A DNA stretch of 64,000 bases from Salinibacterium sp. GTDB lineage: Bacteria > Actinomycetota > Actinomycetes > Actinomycetales > Microbacteriaceae. The notes beneath the pieces are model-generated. The model was not told the origin of the DNA and ran no database searches. It saw nothing but the letters and a program-made list of their open reading frames with translations. The position numbers were made by a program, and so were the translations under genes. Shown here piece after piece: positions 42,102-64,000 of this stretch (its first letter is position 1; each line of letters opens with the position of its first letter). The stretch is taken from NCBI GenBank assembly GCA_019638845.1, contig JAHBSZ010000001.1:124001-188000 (forward strand). Reading direction: 5' to 3'.

Positions 42102-43114
42102 TTGCTCAACCCTTCGAGAACCCACCACGGGGCGGGGACGGTGCCGGTGGACTGGTACTGCGTGAGTTGGCGAGCTATCTCGTCTGGCTGCGGAAGATAT
42201 CGACTCTCCAGCGCCTTGCTGTAGGGCACGGGGACGTTCGGCGTGGTGATCCGGAACGGGGCTGCCGACAGGCTCGAGAAGAGTTCGCGCGTGACTGCGG
42301 CGACAATCTCACTACCCCATCCACCCGACTCCGGGGCCTCCTCGACGACCACCAACCGGTGGGTCTTGGCGACGGACTCGAGCACGGTGGCCCGATCCCA
42401 CGGGGCGAGCGTGATGAGATCGATGATCTCAGCGTCGATCCCGGATGCCTCGACACTCTCGACTACCGCCGTACGCATCTGCCCCATCGTGACGATGGTG
42501 ACTGCAGTCCCCGGGCGAACCACCTCGGCCCGACCCAACTGCACGAGTCCCGCTGCTCCGCGCTGCACCTCGCCGCGAACCGCGTACAGGTTCCTCGGCT
42601 CGAGCACCATGGTGGGGCCGGGCGACTGGATGGCGGCCCGGAGGATGCCGTAGGCATTCTGAGGCGTGCTCATCGTGACGACGGTCAGCCCGGGTGTCGC
42701 GGTGACCCAGTTCTCGAGGGTTTGGCTGTGCTGCGAACCGAACCCGGTGCCGCTGCCCACCGACGCGCGCACCGTGAGCGGAACCGAAAGCGCACCCTTG
42801 CTGAGGTAGTGCATCTTCGCGGCCCCCGTAACGAGCTGGTCGAGGGCGACGCCGAGGAACTCCATGAACATGATCTCGATCACGGGGCGAAGGCCGGCGA
42901 TCGCGGCGCCGACACCGGCACCAGTGAAGGCCATCTCCGAGATGGGGGTGTCTCGCACCCGGTTGGGCCCGAACTTGTCGAGGAGTCCCTCCGAGGTTTT
43001 GAAAGGGCCGCCAGCGACGGCGATATCTTCCCCCATCACCATGACACTCGGGTCGGCTTCCATCTCATCCTCGAGCGCGGCAACTATTGCCTGCCGGAAG
43101 CGCATCTGAGTCAC
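42098..43114 (-). CDS. 2-oxoacid dehydrogenase E1 component, beta subunit
   Basis: A 338-residue transketolase-like subunit. FRQAIVAALEDEMEADPSVMVMGEDIA, FGPNRVRDTPISEMAFTGAGVGAAIAGLRPVIEIMFMEF, and GTGFGSQHSQTLENWV are the expected blocks; the C-terminal domain has MRTAVVESVEASGIDAEIIDLITLAPWD. The start is put at GTG 43114, behind AAGGGA; the ATG at 43105 is an alternative. First gene of the E1 beta, E1 alpha, lipoyl operon, with promoter and operator just upstream. Confidence 0.9.
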   Translation of the reverse strand: MTQMRFRQAIVAALEDEMEADPSVMVMGEDIAVAGGPFKTSEGLLDKFGPNRVRDTPISEMAFTGAGVGAAIAGLRPVIEIMFMEFLGVALDQLVTGAAKMHYLSKGALSVPLTVRASVGSGTGFGSQHSQTLENWVTATPGLTVVTMSTPQNAYGILRAAIQSPGPTMVLEPRNLYAVRGEVQRGAAGLVQLGRAEVVRPGTAVTIVTMGQMRTAVVESVEASGIDAEIIDLITLAPWDRATVLESVAKTHRLVVVEEAPESGGWGSEIVAAVTRELFSSLSAAPFRITTPNVPVPYSKALESRYLPQPDEIARQLTQYQSTGTVPAPWWVLEGLSK

Positions 43115-43134
43115 GTCATCGGTCCCTTCGTTTC

Positions 43135-43176
43135 TGGAATCGTTTCGAGGATATGCCCCGACCCCCCGATCGTCAA
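43135..43176 (-). promoter_or_regulatory. promoter and LacI operator of the E1 operon
   Basis: On the minus strand TTGACG (43176-43171), 17 bp, then TATCCT (43153-43148), followed directly by the operator whose plus-strand text is TGGAATCGTTTCGA (43135-43148). It matches the regulon consensus except one base in the right half. The E1 beta GTG lies at 43114. Confidence 0.7.
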
Positions 43177-43195
43177 CTGATCGCAACGCCGGTCG

Positions 43196-43241
43196 TTGAC
43201 CCGGTCACCACGAGATCGATACAGTTCTGGAAACGATTCGA
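43196..43241 (+). promoter_or_regulatory. promoter and LacI operator of the dapB-like operon
   Basis: TTGACC (43196-43201), 17 bp, ATACAG (43219-43224), then operator TGGAAACGATTCGA (43228-43241), 35 bp before the GTG at 43276. Its centre is 93 bp from that of the divergent operator at 43135, so two repressor dimers could bridge by looping. Confidence 0.65.
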
Positions 43242-43275
43242 GGGCGAATGCTCTCTTGGCGACGGGAGTCAGTGC

Positions 43276-44208
43276 GTGATCGAGGTCGCTGTGATCGGCG
43301 ATGGCCAGCTCGCGCGGGGCGTCGCGGCACAACTTGCGGAGCGTTCCGACCTCCGAGTGGTGGGGCCCACCCCGCGCGACGGCATCGCAGCAGCACTCGA
43401 CGCCGGCACGCGCGTCGTCGTCATCGCGACGACCACGAGACTCGCCGACATCGCCCACCACATCGAGGCCGCGGTTCTGGCGGGTTCGAACGTCATCGTC
43501 TCCGCCGAGGAGTGCGCGTACCCCTGGGCAGTGGATCGCGTGGTCGCGGATCGGCTGGACACGCTCGCGCGGGAGCGCGGAGTGACGATTCTCGGCTGCG
43601 GACTCAATCCAGGTTTCGTTTTTGACGCCCTCGTGCTCACGCTCCTCGGCACGGGCGGACTCCCCACCGGCATCTCTGTCGAACGGACCGTCGATCTCTC
43701 CGGGTTCGGTCCGACCGTGCGAGGGCGCCTAGGCCTCGGAGTTTCGAGCACCGACTTTGCTGCGGGCATCGAGAGCGCACGCATCCTCGGTCACGCGGGA
43801 TTCCCTCAATCGATGTCGATCGTCGCCGACGCTCTCAACGTGGAGATCGACAACATCACGACGCACATCGAGCCCACCCTCGTCGACGACAACACTGTGG
43901 GGTTCATTCAGGAGTATGTCGCGATCGTGGGCGGACTGCCGTGGTTCCGCGCTCGGTTCATCGGGCACCTCTCCCCCGCCGCAGCCGGACTCGTCGTCCG
44001 CGACACCATCGAGATCACGTCGCGCGACACACCCCTCACGTGCACCATCGAACCGGGGATCGGATCCCAGTCGGGATCACAATCCCTCATCGCCAACTCG
44101 ATAGATCGCGTGGTCGCCGCTCCCTCCGGATGGCTCACCGTGGCCGAACTCGAGCCTGCGCATCCTCGTTTCATCTCAGAGCACCCCGCCCGAACATCGA
44201 TCAGTTAG
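43276..44208 (+). CDS. DapB-like NAD(P)-dependent dehydrogenase
   Basis: A 310-residue protein with a dihydrodipicolinate-reductase-like N-terminal Rossmann domain: VAVIGDGQLARGVAAQLAERSDLRVVG, VVVIATTTRLADIAHHIEAAV and GSNVIVSAEECAYPW. LGCGLNPGFVFDALVL follows, where a GxNPGFxMD motif is usual in the 2,4-diaminopentanoate dehydrogenase-like group, so it is a member of that broad family rather than true DapB. Start GTG 43276, behind GGGAG; longer frames overlap the operator. First gene of an operon with a dehydratase and an SDR. It could oxidise or reduce an imino or carbonyl intermediate of the sugar-acid route. Confidence 0.72.
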   Translation: MIEVAVIGDGQLARGVAAQLAERSDLRVVGPTPRDGIAAALDAGTRVVVIATTTRLADIAHHIEAAVLAGSNVIVSAEECAYPWAVDRVVADRLDTLARERGVTILGCGLNPGFVFDALVLTLLGTGGLPTGISVERTVDLSGFGPTVRGRLGLGVSSTDFAAGIESARILGHAGFPQSMSIVADALNVEIDNITTHIEPTLVDDNTVGFIQEYVAIVGGLPWFRARFIGHLSPAAAGLVVRDTIEITSRDTPLTCTIEPGIGSQSGSQSLIANSIDRVVAAPSGWLTVAELEPAHPRFISEHPARTSIS

Positions 44209-44218
44209 GTACTCACCC

Positions 44219-45349
44219 ATGTCAGTAATCACCGCCGTTGACGTCTTTCCCGTGCAATACCCCGAGCCCAACGACTCCGATGCCCTGCGCTGCCTCACGT
44301 TCGTGCGCATCCGCAGCTCCGACGGAGCCGAAGGCTGGGGCGAGGCCGTGACGATGTTCCCGGGGGCGACAGCGGCCACCGCGATCATGGTCGAGTCGGT
44401 TCGCGAACTGCTCGTAGGGCGGGATCCCCTCGCGAACGTCGCGTTGTGGCACGAGTTGCAGAACGAAGCCTGGTGGTACGGCCATCGAGGGGGGATCTTC
44501 TCGTTCGCGCTTTCCGCCATCGACATCGCACTCTGGGACCTCAAGGGACGCATTTCCGGACTTTCCCTCGCCCACCTCCTGGGCGGGGCACGCGTCGACA
44601 CGTTGCCCACCATCGCCTCCACCCACGCCTTCGATCCCTCACTCGAGGTCGAGGCTGAACGCCACGGTCGCTACGTCACCGAGCATGGTTTCAAGGGCTT
44701 CAAGATCGGAATGGGTAAACGTGGCGAAACCCATATCGGCTACGAGGTAGCCCGCGACATCGAGTTCATGCGCCTGCTGCGTGAAGCCGCTGGACCCGAC
44801 GCGATGATCATGCTCGACCGAGGCAAGAAGATCACCTGGACGCTCAACGACGCAATCGCCCGAGTGCGGGGATTTGAGGAGTACAACCTCTCCTGGATCG
44901 AGGAGCCGTTCGAGCCCGACCACTCGCTCGAACTGCACGCGCTGCGCGAGCAGGTCGGATGCCTCATCGCCGGTGGCGAGCGCGAGTGGGACGTCCACGG
45001 CTACGAAAACGCACTCGCTGACGGACTCATCGACGTCGTCGGATGCGACGTGGGCCGCGTAGGCGGGGTGACGGGTGCCCTCCAGATTCTCGCCGTCGTC
45101 GAACGCGAGCACCGCTGGTTCAACTCCCACGCTTGGTCGAGCGCTGTCAATACCGCCGTGTCGATCGCGCTCTCGGCGACGACGGACCGCGTGCTTCTTC
45201 AGGAACTTAAGCCCGACCGCAACCCCATGCAGGACGAGCTCATCTCGGAACCGATCCGCGCGGTCGACGGCATGGTGGCAGTACCGACCGGCCCTGGCAT
45301 CGGTGTCGTTCCCAACCTGGACGTCCTCATGCATTACGCGCTCTCGTGA
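44219..45349 (+). CDS. enolase-superfamily (mandelate racemase/muconate lactonizing) protein 1
   Basis: A 376-residue TIM-barrel enzyme, probably an acid-sugar dehydratase. Metal ligands are expected at Asp200 (MIMLDRGKK), Glu229 (WIEEPFEP) and Glu254 (AGGERE), and a C-terminal general base His304 (FNSHAWSS) with Asp277 before it. The Lys motif reads GFKGFKIGMGK: the first Lys (162) is present but the second of KxK aligns with Gly164. Loss of one Lys is compatible with a dehydratase using His304. It follows the DapB-like gene by 10 bp and its TGA overlaps the next SDR start. Confidence 0.85.
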   Translation: MSVITAVDVFPVQYPEPNDSDALRCLTFVRIRSSDGAEGWGEAVTMFPGATAATAIMVESVRELLVGRDPLANVALWHELQNEAWWYGHRGGIFSFALSAIDIALWDLKGRISGLSLAHLLGGARVDTLPTIASTHAFDPSLEVEAERHGRYVTEHGFKGFKIGMGKRGETHIGYEVARDIEFMRLLREAAGPDAMIMLDRGKKITWTLNDAIARVRGFEEYNLSWIEEPFEPDHSLELHALREQVGCLIAGGEREWDVHGYENALADGLIDVVGCDVGRVGGVTGALQILAVVEREHRWFNSHAWSSAVNTAVSIALSATTDRVLLQELKPDRNPMQDELISEPIRAVDGMVAVPTGPGIGVVPNLDVLMHYALS

Positions 45350-46116
45350 GCATGGCCCTTCTCGGGGCCGGGCTCGAGGGAGCGGGAGTCATCGTCACGG
45401 GTGCCGCTGGCGGGATCGGAGAAGCTACCGCACGGGCCCTCGCCGAGGCCGGTGCCCAGGTCTGCGCGCTCGACCTCCCCGGCCCCGCCCTCGATGACCT
45501 CGTGGCAGCACTTCCCGGGCGTCAGGATCACTTTGCACTCCCCCTCGACCTAGGCGACACCAGCGCCCTTGACCCGGCTGTGCACGATGCGGTCGAGCAC
45601 CTCGACAGGTTCTGGGGCCTCGTGCACGCCGCGGCGTTCCTGCAGCGGCAGTCGCCGGAGGAGGTCACCGAGGAGACGTGGGATGCCCAGCTCGATGTCA
45701 ATCTCAAAGCCACGTTCTGGCTCAATCGAGCGGCCGGCGAACTGCTCGTCGCCCGCGGCCAGGGTGGTCGGATCATCAACTTCACATCCGCCGCGTGGAT
45801 GACCGGACCGATGCTCGACAGCGATGTCTACTCAGCGTCGAAGGGTGGGGTCGTCACGATGACCAAAGGGTTCGCCCGACGCCTGGGCGCGGCGGGAATC
45901 ACGGTGAACGCCATCTCCCCCGGCCAGATCGAGACCGCGATGCAACGCAAGCAAAACACGCCGGAAGCGATGGCGGCCGTGGCCGCCAATTGCCCATTGG
46001 GCCGGACAGGGACCGCAGCAGAGGTCGCCGCGGTCGCGGTATTCCTCGCCTCGAGCCACGCGAGTTTCGTCTCGGGAGCGACGATAAACGTCAGTGGCGG
46101 GCTCTTGATGTACTAA
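45346..46116 (+). CDS. short-chain dehydrogenase (SDR) 1
   Basis: A 256-residue classical SDR starting at GTG 45346, overlapping the dehydratase stop as GTGA; an ATG follows two codons on. VIVTGAAGGIGEATARALAEAG, LDLPGPA (Asp for NAD preference), INFTSAAWMTGPMLDSDVYSASKGG with Tyr-X3-Lys, and AISPGQIETAM. The end NVSGGLLMY and the middle EETWDAQLDVNLKATFWL are shared with the SDR at 48348, showing they are paralogues. It may oxidise a sugar, lactone or keto-deoxy acid in the pathway. Confidence 0.88.
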   Translation: MSMALLGAGLEGAGVIVTGAAGGIGEATARALAEAGAQVCALDLPGPALDDLVAALPGRQDHFALPLDLGDTSALDPAVHDAVEHLDRFWGLVHAAAFLQRQSPEEVTEETWDAQLDVNLKATFWLNRAAGELLVARGQGGRIINFTSAAWMTGPMLDSDVYSASKGGVVTMTKGFARRLGAAGITVNAISPGQIETAMQRKQNTPEAMAAVAANCPLGRTGTAAEVAAVAVFLASSHASFVSGATINVSGGLLMY

Positions 46117-46134
46117 TTCCTAGAATCCTTTCCA
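46111..46134 (+). promoter_or_regulatory. LacI operator and likely -10 box before the CxxCxxC gene
   Basis: TACTAA (46111-46116), which is also the end of the previous SDR gene, resembles a -10 box, and TAGAATCCTTTCCA (46121-46134) resembles the regulon operator with weaker left half. No good -35 is visible. It lies 44 bp before the ATG at 46178. Confidence 0.5.
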
Positions 46135-46177: not shown

Positions 46178-47293
46178 ATGACAGACACAATGGGGTTCTC
46201 TGACATCCTCCAACGCCGCGTGCGATTGGGCAGTTGGCAGGATCAGAAAGTCGCCACGTACGACCTCATCCTCGACGCCCTCGCCAACCAACAATGGACG
46301 AACGCTGCCGAGCTGGCCTCATACTTCGTCGACGAGGCCGCCGTCTGCTGGCAGCTGTACCGGCAGTGGCTTTCCGATCTCGAAGGCTTTCTGCGCGACG
46401 AGGGCACGACCGCCGAGGACCTGGAGCGTATCCGCCAGACGCTCATCGACCTGACGCCCCTGCCCGACGGCTCCCAGTTCAACACCTTCACGATGTGGGA
46501 CACGTTCAAGGAACTCATCGCGTCTGTCATCAGCGCCGCCGAGGCGCACGACGCGGCCCGTGCAACGGAACTCATGGCTGAGGCCAAAGAGATCTGGCGC
46601 CAAACACATGACCGAGACGTCGACAAAACGTACTTCTACATGAGTGAAACCGCCCGGCGCTACGGCGATGACGCGATCCCGCGGATGTACGAACGTGTAC
46701 TCGTTCCCCTCTTCGCGTGGCGGTACGAGAAGTTCGACATCGATAAGCACCCGTGGGACGAGGGCCTCGAGACCCTCATGTACGTCTCGTGCGAGGCGAT
46801 GCGCGGGCACCTCAGCGGCCCCGAGCGCAACGGCAACTTCGAACTCGAAGAACTTGCGGACCGATTCATCCTGAAGTTCGATGCCTGCGGATCTGGCGGT
46901 CGCACGCTTCGTGGGGACTGGATCGAGAACACTCCGGCTCGCATGGAGGCGCCTTACAACTTCCGCGTGTCCGAGGAAGAGCGGGATTGGAACCACTACC
47001 AAAAGGGTGTGTGCCTCTACTGCGCCCACTGCATAATCCTCATGGAGCACATGCCCATGGACAGGTTCGGCTACCCGGTACGTGTGGTCGATCCACCGAT
47101 CTACCCGGATACCGACAAGGACCCGGCGGTGCGACAGAAGTGCCAATGGACCATGTTCAAGGACCCGACAACGGTGCCTGAAGAGATGTACACGCGCTCC
47201 GGCCGTACGAAGCCCACCGAGTTCGGTTCGCGATCACACAATGTGGTGGACCTGCCCGATCCCACAGTCTTCGGGATGCCCGGCAGCGGATGA
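46178..47293 (+). CDS. unrecognised Cys-motif protein in the sugar-acid regulon
   Basis: A 371-residue cytoplasmic protein I do not recognise. It is mostly helical by appearance, with no signal peptide or TM helix. A C279-X2-C282-X2-C285 motif (VCLYCAHCIILMEH) with His291 suggests zinc or iron-sulfur binding; further Cys are at 57, 205, 237 (FDACGSGGRTLRGD) and 322 (RQKCQWTMF). The centre is rich in Trp, Tyr and Asp/Glu (FAWRYEKFDIDKHPWDEGLETLMY). It is the first gene after an operator, and the ADH gene overlaps its end by four bases, so it is an integral part of the pathway. An ATG at 46190 is an alternative start. It could be an enzyme of a new family or a metal-dependent sensor. Confidence 0.8.
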   Translation: MTDTMGFSDILQRRVRLGSWQDQKVATYDLILDALANQQWTNAAELASYFVDEAAVCWQLYRQWLSDLEGFLRDEGTTAEDLERIRQTLIDLTPLPDGSQFNTFTMWDTFKELIASVISAAEAHDAARATELMAEAKEIWRQTHDRDVDKTYFYMSETARRYGDDAIPRMYERVLVPLFAWRYEKFDIDKHPWDEGLETLMYVSCEAMRGHLSGPERNGNFELEELADRFILKFDACGSGGRTLRGDWIENTPARMEAPYNFRVSEEERDWNHYQKGVCLYCAHCIILMEHMPMDRFGYPVRVVDPPIYPDTDKDPAVRQKCQWTMFKDPTTVPEEMYTRSGRTKPTEFGSRSHNVVDLPDPTVFGMPGSG

Positions 47294-48351
47294 CCAGTCT
47301 CCCGACAACGGGTGCTGCGATCGTCATGCCTGCGGAGGGCGGTCCGCTGCGTTTGGTGCAGCGCCCCGTGGATACCCCCGCAGCGGGTGAAGCTCTCGTC
47401 CGCATCGAAGCGTGTGGCGTGTGCGGCTCCGACGCCTTCCTCCAAGACGGCGGATTCGGCCCAGGCTCGCTGCCTCGCGTGCCCGGTCACGAAGCCGCGG
47501 GAGTGGTCATTGCCGTCGGCGATGCGCAGGATGCCGAATGGATCGGACGCCAGGTCGCGCTCTATTACATCGAAGGTCCCGCCGAGTCGGCGTGGGCTGA
47601 GGCTGGCCACGAGAACATCGGTCCGGGCATCCAGAGGATGGGTGTGGACGTCGACGGCGCGTTCGCCCAGTACGTCGTGCGGCGCATCACCACGCTCATC
47701 CCGGTCGAGCCCCGCATGGACCCGGCCTCCGTCGCCGTGGCCACCGACGCCCTCGCCACTCCCTACCATGCCCTCACTGCAATCGCGGGACTCGCTTCCG
47801 GTGAGACGCTCGCCATCATCGGACTGGGTGGCATCGGCAGCAATGCGGTTCAGATCGGCCGACACCTCGGGGCGAAAGTCGTGGCCGTGGGCCGCGGGGA
47901 AGCAAAGCTCGCCCAGGCGCGGGAGCTCGGAGCCGCCATCACCCTGCACTCCTCCGACGGCCCCGAAGCGATAGTCGCGGCGGCCGGCGGTCAGATCGAT
48001 GTCGTACTGCAGTGTGTCGGGGAGAACACCGCAATGGATCGGCTCGCCATCGATATTGCTGGCTACCGGGCGAGGGTCGTGTTCATCGCGGTGTCGCAGG
48101 ACGACTTTCCGGTGCGATCCACGGAACTCGTCTGGCGGGAATTGTCGCTCAAGGGCAGTCGCGGCTTCACACGAGAGGACATCCGCGAGGTTCTCGCGCT
48201 CGTGGCATCCGGTGATCTCACGACCGACCACCTCACCCGCAACCGCCGACCGCTCAGGGAAGCCGCGGAGGCCATCGCCGATCTGCGTGCCGGCACTGTA
48301 CTACGCACGGTTTTGACCATGGATGATTTACGCGAAGGAGACGGACAGTGA
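47290..48351 (+). CDS. zinc-type medium-chain alcohol/polyol dehydrogenase
   Basis: A 353-residue MDR enzyme. IEACGVCGSDAFLQDGGFG has the catalytic Cys45 and PGHEAAGVV the catalytic His67 and Glu68. The four-Cys structural zinc loop is missing: the corresponding loop is ALYYIEGPAESAWAEAGHENIGPG. The coenzyme site is LAIIGLGGIGSNAVQIGRHLG. This layout suits polyol/sugar-acid dehydrogenases of the L-threonine or galactitol dehydrogenase side. Its ATG overlaps the previous stop and its stop overlaps the following SDR start, so the three genes are translationally coupled. Confidence 0.88.
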   Translation: MTSLPTTGAAIVMPAEGGPLRLVQRPVDTPAAGEALVRIEACGVCGSDAFLQDGGFGPGSLPRVPGHEAAGVVIAVGDAQDAEWIGRQVALYYIEGPAESAWAEAGHENIGPGIQRMGVDVDGAFAQYVVRRITTLIPVEPRMDPASVAVATDALATPYHALTAIAGLASGETLAIIGLGGIGSNAVQIGRHLGAKVVAVGRGEAKLAQARELGAAITLHSSDGPEAIVAAAGGQIDVVLQCVGENTAMDRLAIDIAGYRARVVFIAVSQDDFPVRSTELVWRELSLKGSRGFTREDIREVLALVASGDLTTDHLTRNRRPLREAAEAIADLRAGTVLRTVLTMDDLREGDGQ

Positions 48352-49112
48352 CGTGGCGAAATGATGCAGGACTGGTAGGTAGGAGCGTTGTCGTCACCGG
48401 GGCGGCCGGCGGGATCGGACGCTCGGTCACACGAGCATTCGCCGAGGCGGGTGCGCACGTTGTCGCCGTCGATCTACCCGGCTCGCCCATTGCGGACGTC
48501 GTCGCGGCCCTGCCCGGCGGTCCCCACCTCGCGCTTGAGGCAAACCTGCTCGATCTCACGAGCCATGCGAGCATCTTTGAGCGCGCCAATGAGCTCGCGC
48601 CGTTCGCGGCCCTTGCCCATCTTGCGGCAGTGCTCCGCCGCGCCGAATCCATTGACGACATCACCGAGGAAGACTGGGACCTCCAGCTCGACGTCAACCT
48701 CAAAGTGACCTTCTTCCTCGGCAGGAGTGCGAACGCGGCGTTGAGGGCCGCGGGCACGCCCGGCGCCATCGTCAACTTCACCTCCCAAGGCTGGTGGACG
48801 GGCGGCTTCGGCGGTTCGGTCGTCTATAACGCCAGCAAGGGCGGCGTGACGACCCTGACCAAGGGTCTCGCCCGGTCGTTCGCGGCCAACGGCGTCCGGG
48901 TCAACGCGGTAGCCCCGGGCGGGGTCGACACACCCATGATGAACGAGGGGATGTCGCCGGAAGCACTCGCGTCGTTCCTCGCCATGGTTCCCCTCGGTCG
49001 CCTCGCCCAGACCGACGAACTCGCCGGCGCCGTGGTCTTCCTCGCTTCGGACGCCGCGTCGTTCGTGACCGGCTCGGTCATGAACGTCTCCGGCGGCCAG
49101 CTCATGTACTGA
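48348..49112 (+). CDS. short-chain dehydrogenase (SDR) 2
   Basis: A 254-residue SDR from GTG 48348. SVVVTGAAGGIGRSVTRAFAEAG, VAVDLPGSP, DITEEDWDLQLDVNLKVTFFLG, INFTS-type text as VNFTSQGWWTGGFGG, VVYNASKGG with Tyr-X3-Lys, and VAPGGVDTPM. It ends in NVSGGQLMY, like the SDR at 45346, and is clearly its paralogue. The acidic residue after the second strand points to NAD. It lies between the ADH and a third SDR. Confidence 0.88.
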   Translation: MTWRNDAGLVGRSVVVTGAAGGIGRSVTRAFAEAGAHVVAVDLPGSPIADVVAALPGGPHLALEANLLDLTSHASIFERANELAPFAALAHLAAVLRRAESIDDITEEDWDLQLDVNLKVTFFLGRSANAALRAAGTPGAIVNFTSQGWWTGGFGGSVVYNASKGGVTTLTKGLARSFAANGVRVNAVAPGGVDTPMMNEGMSPEALASFLAMVPLGRLAQTDELAGAVVFLASDAASFVTGSVMNVSGGQLMY

Positions 49113-49923: not shown

Positions 49924-49945
49924 GAAACGTAATCAGGAGTTGGCA

Positions 49946-51109: not shown

Positions 51110-51135
51110 TTCGATCGCAGAGAAAGGAAGCCACA

Positions 51136-56886: not shown

Positions 56887-56955
56887 TGCGCACCCTTCCG
56901 TCACGGCCATCGACCACGTCATGTGCACACCAGTATGCTGCACAGTTCCGATTTT

Positions 56956-56969
56956 TGGAATCATTTCCG
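56956..56969. promoter_or_regulatory. LacI operator before the rhaM-lacI operon
   Basis: TGGAATCATTTCCG fits the regulon consensus with changes at the centre and last base. It lies 70 bp upstream of the rhaM ATG, in a 189-bp region shared with the divergent binding-protein gene. The regulator gene is read from this unit, giving negative feedback. Confidence 0.65.
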
Positions 56970-56985: not shown

Positions 56986-57038
56986 TTGACATAGATCGCG
57001 CACTGACAATAGCGTCGAGTTCTGGAATTGATTCCAGA
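56986..57038 (+). promoter_or_regulatory. promoter and LacI operator of binding-protein gene 1
   Basis: TTGACA (56986-56991), 17 bp, ATAGCG (57009-57014) as a weak -10, and the perfect palindrome TCTGGAATTGATTCCAGA (57021-57038), 38 bp before the ATG at 57076. Confidence 0.7.
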
Positions 57039-57075
57039 TTTGGGACTATCCGATCGGTTCAGAGAGGAACCACTC

Positions 57076-58170
57076 ATGCATGTTTCGAGAAAAGGCCGGG
57101 AGAAAACGCTCCTGGCCGGCCTAGGACTCATCACTGCAGTCCTGTTGGCCGGATGCGCCACGAGCACAGCGACGGTCGACGGCGACCGAACGCCAGACAG
57201 CGGAGACGCCACCGCTGCCCTCACCGCTGCGGTAGCTGCGGCGAACACTGACGACCCCAACGCCGCCGATTTCGTCGGCGCCAAGAGTGGATCCGGCACC
57301 GGGCTCGTCGTGGGCTACATTTCGGCTGGAGAGGCCAGCCCGTTCGTGCATGCCCTGACGGTGGGCGTTCAGGAGCAGGCGGAAAAGGCTGGGGTAGACC
57401 TGCGCATCTGCGATGCGCAATTCGACGCCGCCAAGGCGCTCCAGTGCGCGAACGATCTATCGACACAGGGCATTACCGGCCTCTTCAACATGCAGGTCGA
57501 CGCGGCTTCCGCCCCGGCCATCTGCGCGGTGAACGATGTGCCCACCATCGCCTTGGCTATTCACCAGAAGCCGTGTGAGCTCTCGTTCGTCGGCGCTGAA
57601 GACGAGCGCGCGGGCTATCTCGCGGGCGTCGCCATGGGTGCCTATGTCGACTCGCGATTTGGCTGTGATGTCGACAAGATCTTCTCCCTCGAAGACGTCA
57701 ACTCGGGCGAGACCAACACCAAGCGCGTCAAGGGCTGGACCGAGGGCTTCCAGAGCATCTGCGGCGACAGCCTCGAGTTCGTGCACATCGATACCGCCGG
57801 CCTTATCGACGAGTCTCAGAAGGCGATGACGGATGCCCTGACCACGGCACCGGACTCCCACCGGGTAGTCGTGTTCACCATCGACGACAACGCCGCGCTG
57901 GGCGCCCTCGCCGCGGCATCCTCCCTCGGACGCAAGGGTGACCTCTTCGTCGCCAGCCAGGGCGGCGACGCGAGCGGTCACTGCGAGATCCGATCCAACC
58001 CGCAGTGGGTTGCCGATGTGGGGTACTTCCCGGAACGCTACGGTGAGATTGCGATCCCCGCGATGATCGCGCTGCTGGGCGGCGACGACATCAACCCCGA
58101 CCTGCATGTGCAGCACTCGGTATTCAACAGCACCAACATCGATCAGTTCTATCCAGACGACAACTGCTGA
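57076..58170 (+). CDS. ribose-type ABC sugar-binding lipoprotein 1
   Basis: A 364-residue binding protein with a lipoprotein signal (LAGLGLITAVLLAGCATS, Cys27) and a periplasmic-binding type I fold of the RbsB group: VVGYISAGEASPFVHALTVGVQEQAEKAGVDL, GLFNMQVDAASAPAICAVNDV and VVVFTIDDNAALGALAAASSLG. There are several Cys pairs in the mature part. AGAGGAAC precedes the ATG. It is homologous to the protein encoded next (58318). A terminator-like hairpin follows, so it can be transcribed on its own. Confidence 0.88.
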   Translation: MHVSRKGREKTLLAGLGLITAVLLAGCATSTATVDGDRTPDSGDATAALTAAVAAANTDDPNAADFVGAKSGSGTGLVVGYISAGEASPFVHALTVGVQEQAEKAGVDLRICDAQFDAAKALQCANDLSTQGITGLFNMQVDAASAPAICAVNDVPTIALAIHQKPCELSFVGAEDERAGYLAGVAMGAYVDSRFGCDVDKIFSLEDVNSGETNTKRVKGWTEGFQSICGDSLEFVHIDTAGLIDESQKAMTDALTTAPDSHRVVVFTIDDNAALGALAAASSLGRKGDLFVASQGGDASGHCEIRSNPQWVADVGYFPERYGEIAIPAMIALLGGDDINPDLHVQHSVFNSTNIDQFYPDDNC

Positions 58171-58238: not shown

Positions 58239-58292
58239 TTGACAACACGAAGGCCTAGGGGCTTATCATCTCGATTACTGGAAAGGGTTCCA
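58239..58292 (+). promoter_or_regulatory. promoter and LacI operator of the main transporter operon
   Basis: TTGACA (58239-58244) and TATCAT (58264-58269, spacing 19) are followed by TGGAAAGGGTTCCA (58279-58292), flanked by CTGG/CCAG symmetry. The ATG is at 58318, behind AGAGAGGAACG. Confidence 0.7.
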
Positions 58293-58317: not shown

Positions 58318-59316
58318 ATGCGCGTAATACGGAACAGCAGGGGGCTCGGGGCACTTGTCGCCGCGGCCGCCATCACCGTGCTGGGATTGACTGGCTGTAC
58401 GACATCAGGCACTGGTGACACCGGAGGCGAAGCAGCAGGCGATGGCGCCGGCCTCAAGATCGGCTACATCTCGCTCGGCGACTCCATCCCGTTCGTCAAG
58501 CTCGTGTCCGACAACATCAAGCTGGAGGTCGAGGCGTCTGGCGCCGAGTTCTTCTTCTGCGACTCGCAGCTCGACGCCGCCAAGGCGCTCGCCTGCGCGC
58601 AGACGTTCAAGACTCAGGGTGTTGATGGCATCATCAACTTCCAGGTCGACGAGAAGGCTGCAGCATCCATCTGTGCGGCAGGGCCGGACGTTCCGGTCGT
58701 TGCCGTCGACATCCACCAGCTTCCGTGCGAGAAGGTCTTCGTCGGTGCTGACAACAAGACTGCGGGACAGATCGCAGGCGAGGCGCTGGGCAACTACTTC
58801 AAGGACAACTTCAACTGCGAGTACGATGCATTCGTGTCGATGGAGCAGCCTGCCGCTGGTCAAGTAAACCTTGACCGTACCGGCGGTGCCGTGGATGGCT
58901 TCGAATCAGTGTGCGGCGCTATCCCGGCCGACAAGAAGCGCAGCGTTGATGGCGGTGGCACGATCGACGGTGGACTCACCTCGTTCGGCGACACTCTCAC
59001 GGCGCTCACCGGTGCGACCCGTATCGCTGTCGTCAGCCTCAACGATGACATGCTGCTCGGTTCGTTCGCCGCGGCTGACGCACAGGGACGTTCGGACCAG
59101 GTCTACGGCGTAGCGCAGGGTGCAGACCCGAGCTCGTTCGACAACATCCAGAACGACCCGAACTGGGTCGGCGACACTGCCTACTTCCCGGAGCACTATG
59201 GGGAGCTTGCCGTTCCGTCGATCATTGCCCTCATCAAGGGTGAGAGCGTGCCTGCGAATGTCTTCACCAAGCACGTCTTCATCAACGCGGACAACTTCTC
59301 CGAGTACTACGGATAA
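58318..59316 (+). CDS. ribose-type ABC sugar-binding lipoprotein 2
   Basis: A 332-residue lipoprotein (signal ending VLGLTGC, Cys27) of the RbsB group. KIGYISLGDSIPFVKLVSDNIKLEVEASGAEF, GIINFQVDEKAAASICAAGPDVPVVAVDI and VVSLNDDMLLGSFAAADAQG. It is paralogous to the protein at 57076, with which it shares the CDxQxDAAKALxCA-like block. It is directly upstream of the ATPase and permease genes, so it is the main ligand-binding part of that transporter. Confidence 0.9.
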   Translation: MRVIRNSRGLGALVAAAAITVLGLTGCTTSGTGDTGGEAAGDGAGLKIGYISLGDSIPFVKLVSDNIKLEVEASGAEFFFCDSQLDAAKALACAQTFKTQGVDGIINFQVDEKAAASICAAGPDVPVVAVDIHQLPCEKVFVGADNKTAGQIAGEALGNYFKDNFNCEYDAFVSMEQPAAGQVNLDRTGGAVDGFESVCGAIPADKKRSVDGGGTIDGGLTSFGDTLTALTGATRIAVVSLNDDMLLGSFAAADAQGRSDQVYGVAQGADPSSFDNIQNDPNWVGDTAYFPEHYGELAVPSIIALIKGESVPANVFTKHVFINADNFSEYYG

Positions 59317-59322
59317 GCCCGG

Positions 59323-60819
59323 ATGTCGCAGCTGACCCTGGCATTACGCGACATCAGTAAGTCGTTCGGGGGCGTTGAGGTTCTCCACAAGGTGAACCTC
59401 GACGCCCTCGGCGGCGAAGTTCTCGCCCTGTTGGGCGAGAACGGCGCCGGCAAATCGACTCTGGTGAAGATCCTCGCGGGAGACTACGTTCCCGACGGTG
59501 GCGAAGTCATCGTCGACGATGTCAGCGCTCCCAGTCTCAATCCCCGCACGGCACGCAAGCTCGGTATCCGGATGATCCATCAGGAGTTTCAGGATGCTGG
59601 CGCACTGACCGTCGCGGAGAACATCTCTCTCGGGCGCTGGCCGACCACGGGAGGAATCGTCTCATGGCGCAACCTCAAGCGTCGCGCTGTGGACGTCCTG
59701 ACCCAACTCGGGGTGGACATTGATCCCGGTGCCTTGGTGAGCTCCCTCAGGGTCGGAGAACGCCAAGTCGTCGAGATCGCACGAGCGCTCGCGGACGACG
59801 CGAAGCTCTTGATCCTCGACGAACCGACCGCCGCGCTGTCCCAGCAGGAGGTGGATCGTCTGTTCGAGTGGGTCCGCCGCCTCCGTGACCGCGGGGTGTG
59901 CGTTGTCTACATCACCCACCGACTCGACGAGGTGTTCGAACTCGCAGACCGTGTACAGGTGCTGCGCAACGGAAACGTCGCGCTTACTGCGCCAACATCT
60001 GACGTGACCCGTCGACAGCTCGTCGAAGCGATGGTGGGGCGCGACATCGGTGAGGTCTCTCGACCCGTCGGAGCTGGAGCCGGCGCGCACGGCGAACCCA
60101 TGATCACTATCGACAACCTGCACGTCGACAATCAAGTCGCAGGCCTGAGCCTCACCGTCCGCAAGGGCGAAGTGGTGTGCCTCTACGGCAAGCTCGGCAG
60201 CGGCACCACGCAGGTCGCGGAGGTCTGCTTCGGCATCCGCAAGCCCACTGGCGGCACCCTCGACATCGCGGGTACCGCGGGCTTTCCCTCTGCGCCTACT
60301 GCCGCAATCCGACGCGGGGTCGGTTACCTTCCCCCCGATCGCAAGCGCGAGGGTGCATTCATGAGCCGCTCGGTGGTCGAGAACCTCTCGGTAGCTTCCT
60401 GGGGGAAGCTGGCGGTCGGCGGCTTGTTCATCACCTCGGGCATGGAAAAGACCGCATACGCGCGTTGGTCGTCGAAGCTCGGCATCAAGTCGGCGGATCC
60501 GGCCAACCAGCAGATCGCTCAGCTCTCGGGTGGCAACCAGCAGAAAGTCATGCTGGCGCGTTGGCTCGAACGCTCCTCGAATCCGCTAGTCCTCGTCGAA
60601 CCGACGCGTGGAGTCGACGTGGGCGCCCGCCAAGAGATCTACTCGGCGATTCGCGCCCTAGCGGCAGAAGGACACGCAGTACTCGTGGTGACGTCTGACT
60701 ATGAGGAGGCCGTGCAGCTTTCCGACCGCGTCGTCGTGATGCAGCGCGGCCAGCAAGTCGCAGAACTCGACGGCAATGACGTCACCGCCCAGAACCTAAC
60801 CATTGCAGCAGGAGGCTGA
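59323..60819 (+). CDS. ribose-type ABC sugar ATPase (RbsA-like)
   Basis: A 498-residue double ATPase. Domain 1: Walker A ALLGENGAGKSTLVKILAG near residues 37-55, HQEFQDAGALTVAENISLG, signature SSLRVGERQVVEIARAL, Walker B LLILDEPTAALS. Domain 2 has the usual degenerate Walker A (LYGKLGSGTTQVAEV, without Lys), GVGYLPPDRKREGAF, signature QLSGGNQQKVMLARW and LVLVEPTRGVDVGARQEIY. Length is standard for RbsA/AraG/MglA. It drives import by the two neighbouring binding proteins and one permease. Confidence 0.93.
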   Translation: MSQLTLALRDISKSFGGVEVLHKVNLDALGGEVLALLGENGAGKSTLVKILAGDYVPDGGEVIVDDVSAPSLNPRTARKLGIRMIHQEFQDAGALTVAENISLGRWPTTGGIVSWRNLKRRAVDVLTQLGVDIDPGALVSSLRVGERQVVEIARALADDAKLLILDEPTAALSQQEVDRLFEWVRRLRDRGVCVVYITHRLDEVFELADRVQVLRNGNVALTAPTSDVTRRQLVEAMVGRDIGEVSRPVGAGAGAHGEPMITIDNLHVDNQVAGLSLTVRKGEVVCLYGKLGSGTTQVAEVCFGIRKPTGGTLDIAGTAGFPSAPTAAIRRGVGYLPPDRKREGAFMSRSVVENLSVASWGKLAVGGLFITSGMEKTAYARWSSKLGIKSADPANQQIAQLSGGNQQKVMLARWLERSSNPLVLVEPTRGVDVGARQEIYSAIRALAAEGHAVLVVTSDYEEAVQLSDRVVVMQRGQQVAELDGNDVTAQNLTIAAGG

Positions 60820-60820
60820 C

Positions 60821-61810
60821 GTGACTGTTCAACTCGATACCCCCATCGACCCGGTCGAAGACCGGAAACCGACGCGCAGTCGACGTCGGATTCCCGAGAC
60901 TGCGGTGCTCGCTGCGGTCTTGTTGGCCCTTGCGATCTTCTTCAGCACTCAGTCGCAGTTCTATTTGACGCCGAACAACCTGCTCAACATCTTGGTCAGC
61001 GCCTCGGTCATCGGCATTATTGCAGCGCCAGGTACCCTCCTGCTCGTCGCCGGGCAGTTCGACCTCTCGGTCGGCTCCGGTGCTGCCTTCATCGGCGTGG
61101 TCATGGCATGGGGCACGGCGCAATGGGGAATTCCGACCGGCGTCGTGCTCGCGATCGTGGCCGGTCTGCTGATCGGGCTGGTCAATGGTGTCGCGGTTAC
61201 GGTGCTCGGAATCAATGCCCTGATCACCACCCTTGCGATGTTGGCAATCCTGCGCGGTCTCGGACAAGTGCTCGCTGGTGGGCAGACGCTCCTGCTGCCG
61301 GGCTTCAACGACCTCGGCAATGCCCGTCCGTTCTTCAACGTACCCATACCGGTACTGGTCTTCGCTGCCGTCGTCATCATCACCGCGCTCGTCATGAAGT
61401 TCACGGTGTTCGGCCGCTCGATGTACGCAATCGGCGCGAACCCGATCGCAGCGCGGCTCGCGGGTATCCGTACCAAGACGGCGATCTTCGGCGGCTTCCT
61501 GCTGTCGGGCGCGGCCGTGGTCATCGGTGGCCTGATCCTCGTCTCGCAACTGGGCGCGGCCTCCCCCAACGCGGCATCCGGGCTCGAGCTGTCAGTGGTG
61601 ACCGCTGTCATCCTGGGTGGCGCAAGCCTCGCCGGTGGCCGGGGAACCATCGTCGGGACCCTGCTGGGCGTGCTCATCCTCGGCACGCTGAACAATGGGC
61701 TGACGCTCATGAACATCAACTCGTTCTGGCAGGACGTCGCACGCGGTGTCCTGCTGCTCGCGGCGGTGGGCTTCGATCAGCTCCGCCTGCGGCTGACTGG
61801 CGACAAGTAA
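60821..61810 (+). CDS. ribose-type ABC sugar permease (RbsC-like)
   Basis: A 329-residue membrane protein with about nine or ten TM helices, read from GTG 60821 behind AGGAGG. A basic cytoplasmic N-terminus of about 30 residues is followed by VLAAVLLALAIFFSTQSQFYLTPNNLLNILVSASVIGIIA, and family text GQFDLSVGSGAAFIGVVMAW, GIVVALLAGLLVG-like IVAGLLIGLVNGVAVTVLGINALITTLAML, and SMYAIGANPIAARLAGI. It forms the channel; the two binding proteins can both dock to it. Confidence 0.92.
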   Translation: MTVQLDTPIDPVEDRKPTRSRRRIPETAVLAAVLLALAIFFSTQSQFYLTPNNLLNILVSASVIGIIAAPGTLLLVAGQFDLSVGSGAAFIGVVMAWGTAQWGIPTGVVLAIVAGLLIGLVNGVAVTVLGINALITTLAMLAILRGLGQVLAGGQTLLLPGFNDLGNARPFFNVPIPVLVFAAVVIITALVMKFTVFGRSMYAIGANPIAARLAGIRTKTAIFGGFLLSGAAVVIGGLILVSQLGAASPNAASGLELSVVTAVILGGASLAGGRGTIVGTLLGVLILGTLNNGLTLMNINSFWQDVARGVLLLAAVGFDQLRLRLTGDK

Positions 61811-61824
61811 GGAAAGGTTTCACC

Positions 61825-62877
61825 ATGACGATCCGAGTCGGAGTAATCGGTGCCGGCAGCTGGACTGTGGCATCCCACCTGCCCAACCTCGCACGCCACG
61901 CTGACGTGGAGTTCGTGGGCGTCTCCCGGAAGGGGCCAGAGCTGCTCAAGAAGATCAAGGACGAGTACGGCTTTGCCGTGGCATCCGAGGATTACCGCGA
62001 TGTGCTCGCCGAAGGCGTTGACGTCGCGATCGTCGCGAGCCCTTCGGGGCTGCACTTCGAGCACGCCCTCGCGGCCCTGGAATCCGGTGCCCACGTTATG
62101 TGCGAGAAGCCCGTCACTATCGATCCGGACAGGGCATGGACGCTCGCCCGGCGGGCCGACGAGCTCGGCAAGGCGTTCGTGGTTTCCTTCGGCTGGAACT
62201 ACAAGCCGATGGTTCAGAAGGCGAAAGCAATGATGGATGCTGGCGGCATCGGCACGCTCGAACATATGACCGTGCACATGGCGTCCGCTACTCGGGAACT
62301 TCTCTCGAACACGGGGTCGTATCCGGGCGCCGCTCCCGAAGCGGTACCGGAGCAGGGGACGTGGACCGATCCGCGTCTCTCGGGTGGCGGCTACGGCCAG
62401 GCACAGTTGACGCACGCGCTTGGGCTCGCCTTCTGGCTCACCGGGGCGCGCGCCGCAGGCGGGTTTGCCACGATGGCCTCGCCCCTCAACGCTCCCGTTG
62501 AACTGCACGATGCGATCGTCTTCAACTACGACGGCGGAGGAATCGGCGTGCTCTCTGGCGGTTCTGCTCACCTGGGCGTGAACGGCAACAAGCACGCTCT
62601 CGAAGTTCGCGCCATCGGTAGTGAGGGGCAGTTACTCGTCGACGTCGAGCGGGAAGCGGTCTGGCTGTTCCGCAATGGCGAAGAGACCAAGGTCGACCTC
62701 GCCGACGGCGACGGCACGTATGACTGCATCGGTCCGATCGACACTGTGCTCAGTGCGGCCCGCGGGGAGGCGTATATCAACCAGTCCCCCGCCGAACTCG
62801 GCGCCCGCGTCGTTGAAGCGCTCGACATCGCCTACCGAAGTGCAGCCTCCGGACAGTTCGAGCGTCGCGCAGGATAG
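61825..62877 (+). CDS. Gfo/Idh/MocA-family oxidoreductase
   Basis: A 350-residue NAD(P)-dependent sugar oxidoreductase. IRVGVIGAGSWTVASHLPNLARHADVEFVGVS is the Rossmann part and AHVMCEKPVTID carries the EKP motif with the catalytic Lys95; the C-terminal domain has the family beta-sheet and a QLTHALGLAFWLTG segment with a likely active-site His. It could oxidise the imported pyranose to a lactone or ketone, making a first step before the lactonases. GGAAAGG precedes the ATG at 61825. It lies in the transporter operon, 14 bp after the permease. Confidence 0.88.
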   Translation: MTIRVGVIGAGSWTVASHLPNLARHADVEFVGVSRKGPELLKKIKDEYGFAVASEDYRDVLAEGVDVAIVASPSGLHFEHALAALESGAHVMCEKPVTIDPDRAWTLARRADELGKAFVVSFGWNYKPMVQKAKAMMDAGGIGTLEHMTVHMASATRELLSNTGSYPGAAPEAVPEQGTWTDPRLSGGGYGQAQLTHALGLAFWLTGARAAGGFATMASPLNAPVELHDAIVFNYDGGGIGVLSGGSAHLGVNGNKHALEVRAIGSEGQLLVDVEREAVWLFRNGEETKVDLADGDGTYDCIGPIDTVLSAARGEAYINQSPAELGARVVEALDIAYRSAASGQFERRAG

Positions 62878-62881
62878 AACT

Positions 62882-63706
62882 ATGACCCCGCGACCGCTTC
62901 GCTCGCACCTCTATGTCCCCGCCGACAAGGCCGACATGCTCGACAAGGCCGAAAGCCGGGGTGCCGATGCTGTCATCATCGACCTCGAAGACGCAGTCGC
63001 ACCCTCGGCCAAGGATGATGCACTCACCGCGACCGTAGCCTTTGCGCGCCGTGAGGCGGGCTCTGGCGAACGCTGGGTTCGTGTGAACTCGGCAGAGCGT
63101 GGACTGCATGAGATCGCGACGCTGGCAGAGTTGCAGATCGACGGATTCTGGTTGCCCAAAGCCGAACCCGGCGACTGGCTCGACACCGCCGTCGCGGCGA
63201 TCATGGCCGCGGGTGCGAAGGTGGGATTCCTTATCGAGAGCGCACGCGGTCTCGTCGGCATGCCGCAGCTCACCGCCGTCCCGACCGACTCCTTGGCCCA
63301 GCTCGGTGAAATCGACCTGCGTGCCGACCTGCGCATCCGGGATGCATCGGAGGAAGCGATGGTGCCGTACCGGGCGAGGATCGTCATGGAAACCGCCCTT
63401 CGCGGTCTCGCGCCAGCGGTGGCGCCGGTGGACCCCGACTACTCGAATCTTGCGGCATTCCGCACATCAACGATCCTCCTGCGCAACCGTGGGTTCGGCT
63501 CACGGGCGTGCATCCACCCCGCTCAGGTGGCGATCGTCAATGAGATCTTCACCCCCGACGAAGCGGAGCTCGAGAACGCCAGGCGAATAGTCGCCGCGTT
63601 CGAGAGCAGCGTCGATGCCGGGCAGGGCGCCTTTGCCGTAGACGGGACGATGGCGGATGCCGCGACCGTCCGGTGGGCTCGATCCCTCCTCGAGTCCCAC
63701 CGATGA
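62882..63706 (+). CDS. CitE-like lyase (HpcH/HpaI aldolase family)
   Basis: A 274-residue TIM-barrel protein of the malyl-/citramalyl-CoA lyase and CitE group. SHLYVPADKADMLDKAESRGADAVIIDLEDAVAPSAKDDA, ERWVRVNSAERG, KVGFLIESARGLVGMPQL with the metal Glu, and GSRACIHPAQVAIVNEIFTPDEAEL are the family blocks. It cleaves or makes a C-C bond of a 3-hydroxyacyl-CoA-type substrate or a keto-deoxy acid. The ATG follows the previous stop by 4 bp and its TGA overlaps the MaoC start as ATGA. Confidence 0.86.
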   Translation: MTPRPLRSHLYVPADKADMLDKAESRGADAVIIDLEDAVAPSAKDDALTATVAFARREAGSGERWVRVNSAERGLHEIATLAELQIDGFWLPKAEPGDWLDTAVAAIMAAGAKVGFLIESARGLVGMPQLTAVPTDSLAQLGEIDLRADLRIRDASEEAMVPYRARIVMETALRGLAPAVAPVDPDYSNLAAFRTSTILLRNRGFGSRACIHPAQVAIVNEIFTPDEAELENARRIVAAFESSVDAGQGAFAVDGTMADAATVRWARSLLESHR

Positions 63707-64000
63707 CGGCCACACCGCCCTATGCCGAGGACCTCGTTCCGGGTGTCGCCCTTGACCCCGCTCCGGAGATCACCATCGATGAAGGCGTGGCAGCACACTA
63801 CCTCGCCGTGAGCGGTGACCAACTGGGGCCCGCACTGAGCTCACCCCTCTCGCGCGAGCTCACCGGTCGTGCGGAGCGCCTCGCGAACCCATGCCTCGTC
63901 ATCGCGCTCTCGATCGGGCAGTCGACGGTCGCGACGGGGCGCGTGATCGCGAACTTGCGCTACGACAACTTGACGCTCGAGCGGCAGCTTCACCTCGGTG
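63703..64000 (+). CDS. MaoC-like dehydratase, N-terminal part (gene continues past the window)
   Basis: The first 99 residues of a hot-dog-fold MaoC-type hydratase (PYAEDLVPGVALDPAPEITIDEGVAAHYLAVSGDQL, NPCLVIALSIGQSTVATGRVIANLRYDNLTL). MaoC proteins hydrate enoyl-CoAs; next to CitE-like lyases they catalyse mesaconyl-, itaconyl- or related-CoA hydration. Usual catalytic Asp/His positions are not fully visible because the frame runs off the right end. ATG at 63703 overlaps the CitE stop. Confidence 0.78.
   Translation, partial: MTATPPYAEDLVPGVALDPAPEITIDEGVAAHYLAVSGDQLGPALSSPLSRELTGRAERLANPCLVIALSIGQSTVATGRVIANLRYDNLTLERQLHLG

Follow-up and report, generated by a model that had tools for sequence, protein, structure and literature searches.

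The window analysed here is a stretch of 64,000 nucleotides (C1:124001-188000) of the 2.96 Mb genome of a Salinibacterium sp., and the system under study is a gene cluster in it that surrounds a gene for a LacI-family regulator. Comparison of sequences strongly supports the view that this cluster is a single LacI regulon, in which the regulator, its sites and its genes travel together. An earlier interpretation of the same DNA (hereafter, the sequence-only reading) had proposed such a regulon, and operators and regulator were found to recur together in other genomes. We consider it probable that one LacI-family repressor controls eight transcription units for the import and oxidation of an aldose without phosphorylation, with an unusual ending that involves an E1 component and coenzyme A (CoA). 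The searches were extended past the end of the window into the sequence L001. A keyword search of titles and the starts of abstracts in the open-access literature recognized no description of the cluster.

As shown in Table 1, genes were annotated using open reading frame (ORF) lists together with Pfam and NCBIfam models. The cluster consists of 27 genes, including those past the window end, and their strands and short gaps suggest eight units: E1 beta-E1 alpha-lipoyl (unit 1), DAPDH-like-MRa-SDR1 (unit 2), orphan-ADH-SDR2-SDR3 (unit 3), MRb-AH2-PTE (unit 4), VOC-SDR4 (unit 5), RhaM-LacI-SGNH (unit 6), SBP1 alone (unit 7) and SBP2-ABC-permease-Gfo-CitE-MaoC-like-CaiB (unit 8), the last of which probably runs past the window and includes an isomerase-like gene as well. 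The sequence-only reading had counted seven units and had set their start at 43114, which leaves out the E1 and lipoyl genes at 40840-43111. It had correctly put a LacI-type gene in the middle of the cluster (55491-56516), and the product of this gene combines a LacI helix-turn-helix domain with a sugar-binding-type sensor domain, both above the Pfam cut-off. The DAPDH-like, orphan, VOC, SGNH and RhaM proteins were missing from the list of the sequence-only reading, and the CoA-transferase and the isomerase-like protein are encoded beyond the window.

The eight predicted operators are palindromic, and the central CG of the consensus is present in four of them. Each lies within one base of the place previously given for it, where the only shift is from 54267 to 54268. 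A search of the window with the pattern TGGAANCGNTTCCA, allowing up to two mismatches, gave nine matches, compared with a mean of 2.0 and a largest value of 7 in shuffled sequences, none of which reached nine in 100 shuffles. When a matrix built from seven sites was used to score the eighth, the left-out sites scored 17.1 to 23.8 bits, and no other position in the 64 kb equalled a left-out site. At up to one mismatch, 12 places were found in the whole genome, six of them in this cluster, whereas a reversed control pattern gave 15; the evidence for the operators is therefore their clustering and position and not a genome-wide excess. The ninth match in the window (46988-47001) is a palindrome within the coding region of a gene for an orphan protein of 371 amino acids. 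It was not counted as an operator, as a conserved peptide (WNHYQ or WNHFQ) can explain the palindrome. The relatives also have one, of which the copy at L010:10792 scores 22.2 bits, and a secondary operator within the gene may exist. Two more TGGAACCGGTTCCA-like sites, 146 bases apart, occur elsewhere in the window genome (C9:152766-152925) and are perhaps operators of another LacI protein.

The operators are closely associated with promoter-like sequences. A −35/−10 pair scoring at least 9.5 was found at exactly six of the eight operators, in agreement with the sequence-only reading, which had claimed at least six; the null probability for random positions in the same region is at most 0.006 for each. 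In these six cases, the end of the −10 box ranges from 1 base within the operator to 9 bases ahead of it. No good pair was found at the operators at 46121 and 56956, which precede the orphan and RhaM units, respectively (P 0.24). A strict promoter scan over 15.6 kb gave three promoter-like sites, a number not above chance (shuffle mean of 2.2), and all three abut an operator. The predicted layout is that of a repressor. Because most operators are located at or just downstream of promoters, the LacI protein should repress the units and release the DNA when a sugar or sugar acid binds.

The same sites are found in other genomes. Two close relatives of the window genome, the SAL1 bin (L002) and S. 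soli (L003), each have seven sites at orthologous genes. The sequence-only reading had named the lack of sites in orthologous regions as the outcome that would speak against it, and the sites are present in both relatives. When a narrower pattern was searched genome-wide with up to two mismatches, seven of nine and seven of 14 places fell inside the orthologous clusters of the two closest relatives, compared with 5 and 1 for the control. As far as the two stretches fetched from S. soli extend (to CaiB), the gene order is that of the window, with the exception of a single binding protein. To the left of the block in the SAL1 bin (L002, 1-4700) are secE, nusG and an aminotransferase gene, whereas the window has dxr and another aminotransferase gene on that side (35476-40804), both being identified by eye from translations. 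The different left neighbours suggest that the genes of the block have moved together among close relatives.

More distant loci were obtained by searching one genome per species, 84,980 species in all, with short peptide patterns of the orphan protein, a search that picks up close relatives only. The patterns matched 34 stretches, of which 21 were confirmed, and these 21 loci are a lower bound. Genes in the relatives were placed by tblastn; calling ORFs by length proved unreliable because of antisense frames in DNA of such high GC content. The window matrix at 12 bits gave 46 sites over the 21 loci, and 35 of them are followed by a cluster gene within 250 bases. In 200 matrices with permuted half-site columns, the number of sites before a cluster gene was 0.36 on average and 5 at most, so that none reached 35, and all matches together had a mean of 1.8 and a largest value of 26. 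The two close relatives supply 14 of the 46 sites and 13 of the 35. Eleven sites do not precede a cluster gene: six belong to Acidimicrobiia-labelled loci and two to L021, all within the orphan gene. Of the remaining three, L002:21071 is where its stretch ends, L004:8171 immediately precedes an ORF that resembles a binding protein, and L018:366 precedes an SDR fragment that scored below the 60-bit limit. Sites near gene starts were found in the Chloroflexota-labelled loci L009, L015 and L016, in the Thermoleophilia or Solirubrobacteraceae loci L005, L018 and L022, and in L014, an Acidobacteria-labelled metagenome-assembled genome. The Solirubrobacteraceae belong to the Thermoleophilia.

The regulator recurs with the genes. 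A LacI relative with 40-56% identity is present in 10 of 11 genomes tested, which were drawn from those behind the 21 loci; the single genome that lacks it is represented by 1.7 Mb of sequence. The helix VA(V/L/M/I)SSVSR, followed by HPDVS, is common to the best LacI protein of each genome and to two others, whereas the lower-scoring LacI proteins that were fetched have different helices, mostly with TVSR. A core cluster gene (at least 90 bits, within flanks of 1.5 kb) stands beside 10 of the 12 proteins of the VAxSSVSR group, compared with one of eight other LacI proteins, which are those fetched of 25 further matches. Among 398 genomes of the family, with at most five candidates scored per genome, a LacI protein at E ≤ 1e-80 was found only in the window genome and in G316, which is of the same genus, the same two that have a full-length orphan protein; a third orphan match covers 73 residues (E 4e-4).

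Ten wider stretches around LacI relatives (L095-L104) show which enzymes accompany the regulator. On one contig, L095 contains LacI, CaiB, CitE, E1, MR genes including MRb, AH2, SDRs, the orphan and isomerase-like genes and RhaM, with four operators, one of them just before CitE. In L096, CaiB and Gfo lie by LacI and three of four operators precede CaiB. Gfo, SDR2 and the isomerase-like gene occur with three operators in L097, CaiB, SDR3, MRb and MRa with one operator in L098, and an ABC operon with Gfo and two operators in L100. AH2, SDR3 and E1 are near LacI in L099, and E1 is about 10 kb from it in L101. In Chloroflexota, CaiB, MRb and E1 are beside LacI in L102 and L103, and E1 is near LacI in L104. 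Because E1, CaiB and CitE recur near the same LacI protein and operators stand before two of the genes (CaiB in L096, CitE in L095), these three enzymes are likely members of the pathway, as judged from gene neighbourhoods.

Several findings weigh against a regulon of this extent with such an ending. Most of the compared loci come from metagenome-assembled genomes. At 12 bits, the stretches L099, L101 and L102 gave no operator, and L103 and L104 have a single one each, which is not located at E1 or CaiB. Neither the E1-MRb-CaiB operons (L102 and L103) nor the E1 genes in L104 and L099 are adjoined by an operator at this score, so that their link with LacI is one of neighbourhood only. In the six Acidimicrobiia-labelled loci (L006-L008 and L010-L012), the matrix matches lie solely within the orphan gene. 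Per-locus gene counts over the 21 loci, made at a limit of 100 bits in short flanks and with cross-matches among SDRs not separated, gave CitE, MaoC and CaiB in none, MRa in 5 and MRb in 4. When wider or different stretches were included, five genomes had a CaiB match (30-36% identity) and one a CitE match (34%), which are similarities at the level of the family, and no MaoC match of at least 70 bits was found in the ten LacI stretches. The lipoyl protein lacks the catalytic domain of an E2. All the NCBIfam matches shown are below the cut-off, most of them far below, and the nearest is that of E1 beta (304 of 321 bits); no reaction or step can therefore be assigned by family.

In the proposed pathway, the binding proteins and ABC transporter would take up the sugar, RhaM would catalyse its mutarotation, and an SDR or the Gfo protein would oxidize it at C1. 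AH2 or PTE would then open the lactone, and MRb or MRa would dehydrate the acid to a 2-keto-3-deoxy acid, which could be oxidized further by an SDR or ADH. The E1/lipoyl complex may carry out an oxidative decarboxylation to a CoA ester, after which CaiB, MaoC and CitE would trade CoA and cleave the product. The isomerase-like and orphan proteins probably act together at some step. Our best guess for the substrate, weakly held, is a 6-deoxyhexose such as L-fucose or L-rhamnose. The order of oxidation to a lactone, hydrolysis, dehydration and an unusual CoA-linked end, which the sequence-only reading had suggested, fits the gene families, and the end is consistent with the recurrence of E1, CoA-transferase and, once, CitE near LacI. 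Its suggestion of import by two binding proteins holds for the window, which has two, and not as a conserved trait, with one in the S. soli stretch. The statement that the enzymes fit no standard route stands for the second half of the pathway; the first half corresponds to the non-phosphorylating route for fucose and rhamnose described in PMC11199699.

This match raises the question of whether the whole system is an ordinary non-phosphorylating L-fucose or L-rhamnose pathway (1-dehydrogenase, lactonase, dehydratase and 4-dehydrogenase), with a diketo acid hydrolase of the FAA type or an aldolase encoded elsewhere, where the E1 and CoA enzymes merely dispose of pyruvate and side products. RhaM, the SDRs, the fuconolactonase-like AH2 and the enolase-superfamily proteins belong to the families of that pathway in PMC11199699 and PMC10444878, and the latter reports better growth of SAR202 Chloroflexota, which have similar enzyme families, on fucose and rhamnose. 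E1 beta comes close to the pyruvate dehydrogenase (PDH) model, in line with a disposal role, and the genome contains nine FAA_hydrolase and four DHDPS matches, of which the nine might provide a classical ending from elsewhere than the regulon, again a point against the ending proposed here. However, none of these 13 places is in the cluster or near a one-mismatch site. An Arg three residues before the catalytic Tyr is common to four types of ketodeoxyfuconate dehydrogenase, as inferred from the residue patterns given in PMC11199699, and the four SDRs have S, S, T and A in SDR1-4, respectively, at this position; an MDR-type enzyme could replace the SDR-type 4-dehydrogenase. Mere disposal explains poorly why E1 and CaiB stand beside the same LacI protein in a second phylum, and the ordinary pathway leaves the isomerase-like and orphan proteins unexplained. 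We therefore regard this explanation as unlikely.

The presence of two dehydratases, two lactonases and four SDRs can alternatively be explained by parallel branches that serve several related sugars at once, an arrangement that is compatible with the proposed regulon. The pairs MRa/MRb, AH2/PTE and SBP1/SBP2 are paralogous, and the 21 loci keep different subsets, with AH2 in 11, PTE in 11 and either of them in 18. Parallel paralog pathways have also been proposed for SAR202 in PMC10444878. However, one type of operator is used throughout, and the S. soli stretches retain all the genes but SBP1 as far as they extend, which is short of the isomerase-like gene, so that no branch has been lost there. 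Parallel branches are a somewhat doubtful explanation, less so than the ordinary pathway.

The operon of CaiB, MaoC-like and CitE genes also resembles an itaconate/mesaconate module, and it is conceivable that a branched-chain sugar or sugar acid is oxidized to a 2-substituted fumarate or malate, from which the module would form acetyl-CoA and a keto acid. The best NCBIfam matches are those of CaiB to succinyl-CoA:mesaconate CoA-transferase (216 bits), CitE to RipC (134 bits) and, weakly, MaoC to RipB (20 bits), and a stretch of the MmgE/PrpD family lies within the L018 cluster. These scores are far below the cut-offs (216 of 700 bits for the CoA-transferase, 134 of 375 for RipC and 19.9 of 340 for RipB), the ten LacI stretches lack MaoC matches, as given above, and no evidence of a branched sugar was found. 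This origin of the CoA-linked ending is accordingly quite improbable.

The orphan protein is encoded by the first gene of unit 3. Searches of Pfam, NCBIfam and the PDB sequences gave no match to it (best PDB E 0.67). Its AlphaFold2 model has a mean pLDDT of 88.7 and no PDB fold match at E ≤ 0.001; as modelled, the protein is mainly helical in its N-terminal part and has a small mixed C-terminal part rich in Cys and His. The wider orphan superfamily, searched with up to five candidates per genome, has invariant C, YC-HC, DPP, C-W and KD positions in nine aligned sequences. A second type of orphan relative adjoins sugar ABC genes (L009, L059 and L060). Remote relatives of the C-terminal two thirds are found near acyl-CoA dehydrogenase-like genes, as identified by eye in part of the translations, and on Rhodococcus plasmids in annotated amine-type operons and in an E1-E2-E3 operon. 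These other catabolic settings of the remote relatives show that the superfamily is not restricted to sugars, and no function could be derived from it.

On the R. jostii RHA1 plasmid pRHL3 (L048, 2167-13532), the orphan relative is accompanied by E1 alpha, E1 beta, E2, E3, an alcohol dehydrogenase, an SDR and an AMP-binding protein, and an IS3-type element interrupts the run. On two Rhodococcus plasmids (L046 and L047), it belongs to a conserved run with two glutamine-synthetase-like genes, DUF1116, several SDRs and an acetate-CoA ligase, which perhaps serves amine degradation. Three assignments for the orphan protein or its remote relatives were not accepted. ATC hydrolase (PF14196) found no support, at an hhalign probability of 0.9% over 13 columns, with shallow profiles; B12-binding_2 reached E 0.00078 and 20 of 23 bits in one search and, in another, matched three of nine members with a best E of 0.0054; and DinB_2 gave E 0.54. 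An EamA-type transporter gene recurs near the orphan gene (L005:2014-2838 by Pfam; L009, L015, L016 and L017 by eye) and may replace the ABC importer. An M81 metallopeptidase at L004:15500-17002 (Pfam) and L018:6373-7929 (by eye) and a creatininase-family protein in the cluster at L015:14684-15766 have no obvious role in a sugar pathway.

The steadiest neighbour of the orphan gene is the isomerase-like gene. At 100 bits it was found in 15 of the 21 loci, in 11 of which it lies next to the orphan gene in divergent orientation; in the window genome, the two are about 20 kb apart. The relative in L020 superposes on Escherichia coli L-arabinose isomerase (AraA) with a TM of 0.86 at 16% identity. 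Several Glu and His positions are invariant in 15 relatives. The use of a sulfo-sugar was considered and set aside, as the match to sulfoquinovose isomerase is weak (30 of 700 bits) and nothing else in support was found, no further search being made.

According to PMC11199699, the known non-phosphorylative routes end in aldolase cleavage, in conversion to 2-oxoglutarate or in hydrolysis of a diketo acid. We tentatively raise the possibility of a fourth kind, ancient and horizontally moving, in which a dedicated E1/lipoyl complex would convert the 2-keto-3-deoxy acid to a CoA ester by decarboxylation, with cleavage through CoA chemistry, and which would include the 371-amino-acid enzyme family, possibly with a new fold and invariant Cys and His, together with its partner of the arabinose isomerase fold. 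The regulon itself is well supported and of a known kind, whereas its ending is unusual; together with the orphan family, the cluster is likely to represent a new pathway variant.

Table 1. Genes and predicted operators of the LacI cluster; positions are those of the window unless preceded by L001, and bits are given with the model cut-off where available.
Feature	Position	Strand	Matches and remarks
Lipoyl carrier domain, free-standing, 80 aa	40840..41079	-	PF00364, E 7e-16; identity 88% L002, 70% L003
E1 alpha subunit, 2-oxoacid dehydrogenase type complex	41079..42128	-	PF00676, E 4.7e-69; PDH E1 alpha model 317 of 394 bits
E1 beta subunit	42101..43111	-	PF02779, PF02780; PDH E1 beta subfamily model 304 of 321 bits
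Operator 1 (E1 unit)	43135..43148		promoter-adjacent; conserved in L002 and L003
Operator 2 (DAPDH-like unit)	43228..43241		promoter-adjacent; conserved in L002 and L003
DAPDH-like dehydrogenase, start codon uncertain	43279..44208	+	PF19328, E 1.6e-22; 2,4-diaminopentanoate dehydrogenase model 169 bits, cut-off 400
MRa, enolase superfamily, probably sugar-acid dehydratase	44219..45349	+	PF13378, PF02746
SDR1	45346..46116	+	PF13561
Operator 3 (orphan protein unit)	46121..46134		conserved in L002 and L003; no good promoter found
Orphan protein, 371 aa from ATG	46178..47293	+	no Pfam, NCBIfam or PDB sequence match; relatives in 21 loci
Zinc-type alcohol dehydrogenase (ADH, MDR)	47290..48351	+	PF00107, PF08240
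SDR2	48348..49112	+	PF13561
SDR3	49151..49858	+	PF13561; at least 100 bits in 14/21 loci, SDR cross-matches not separated
Operator 4 (MRb unit)	49910..49923		promoter-adjacent
MRb, enolase superfamily, probably sugar-acid dehydratase	49940..51109	+	PF13378; PDB chains 3no1, 4h83, 3msy, E about 1e-157
AH2, amidohydrolase-family lactonase-like protein	51130..52023	+	PF04909; L-fucono-1,5-lactonase model 108 bits, cut-off 400
PTE-family hydrolase, possibly lactonase	52020..53063	+	PF02126
SDR4	53063..53791	-	PF13561
VOC/glyoxalase-fold protein	53791..54243	-	PF00903
Operator 5 (VOC-SDR4 unit)	54268..54281		perfect consensus; promoter-adjacent
SGNH/GDSL hydrolase	54325..55491	-	PF13472
LacI-family regulator	55491..56516	-	PF00356, PF13377, PF00532 above cut-off
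RhaM-type sugar mutarotase	56575..56904	-	PF05336; NCBIfam L-rhamnose mutarotase model 60.7 of 99.6 bits
Operator 6 (RhaM-LacI-SGNH unit)	56956..56969		no good promoter found
Operator 7 (SBP1)	57023..57036		promoter-adjacent
SBP1, sugar-binding protein	57073..58170	+	PF13407; no separate gene in S. soli stretch
Operator 8 (SBP2-ABC operon)	58279..58292		promoter-adjacent; same 16 bases in L002, L003, L020
SBP2, sugar-binding protein	58318..59316	+	PF13407
Sugar ABC ATPase	59323..60819	+	PF00005
Sugar ABC permease	60812..61810	+	PF02653
Gfo/Idh/MocA oxidoreductase	61822..62877	+	PF01408
CitE-like lyase	62885..63706	+	PF03328; RipC model 134 bits, cut-off 375
MaoC-like protein	63706..64000, on to L001:1680	+	MaoC Pfam 16.5 of 27 bits
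CaiB-type CoA-transferase	L001:1674-2855, beyond window		CoA_transf_3 E 1e-102
Isomerase-like protein	L001:2849-4234, beyond window		Arabinose_Iso_C 18 of 25 bits; fold match from L020 relative

The regulon is testable and common to Actinomycetota and Chloroflexota, and cultured SAR202 Chloroflexota respond to fucose and rhamnose according to PMC10444878. The regulator and its operator provide a handle for seeking the remaining pathway in other genomes, and screening ligands against a single repressor and a single binding protein could reveal the substrate. An uncharacterised protein family is tied to the cluster, and the PDB chains matched by MRb, which carry generic names only, gain a context.

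Compared with known systems, the cluster can be set beside the non-phosphorylating L-fucose pathway, which consists of FucM, FucA, FucB, FucC, FucF and FucG/FucH in PMC11199699. Mutarotase, SDR, amidohydrolase-family lactonase-like and enolase-superfamily proteins are present here as families, with the specific models below cut-off. However, the cluster contains no FAA hydrolase, DHDPS aldolase or SDR with the Arg at Tyr-3, and it adds the E1/lipoyl, CaiB, CitE, MaoC-like, DAPDH-like, isomerase-like and orphan proteins. The RhaR regulon of Actinomycetales, as described in PMC3870299, likewise places sugar uptake and catabolic genes under a LacI-family regulator; the pathways described there use a kinase, an isomerase and the RhaEW aldolase/dehydrogenase, whereas no kinase or such aldolase is among the genes annotated here. 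Itaconate/mesaconate degradation shares with the cluster CoA-transferase, MaoC-like and CitE-like genes, which are adjacent in one operon here, and differs in that their scores are far below the family cut-offs. The L020 relative of the isomerase-like protein has the fold of AraA but is only 15-18% identical to solved L-arabinose isomerases, and the Arabinose_Iso_C match is below cut-off.

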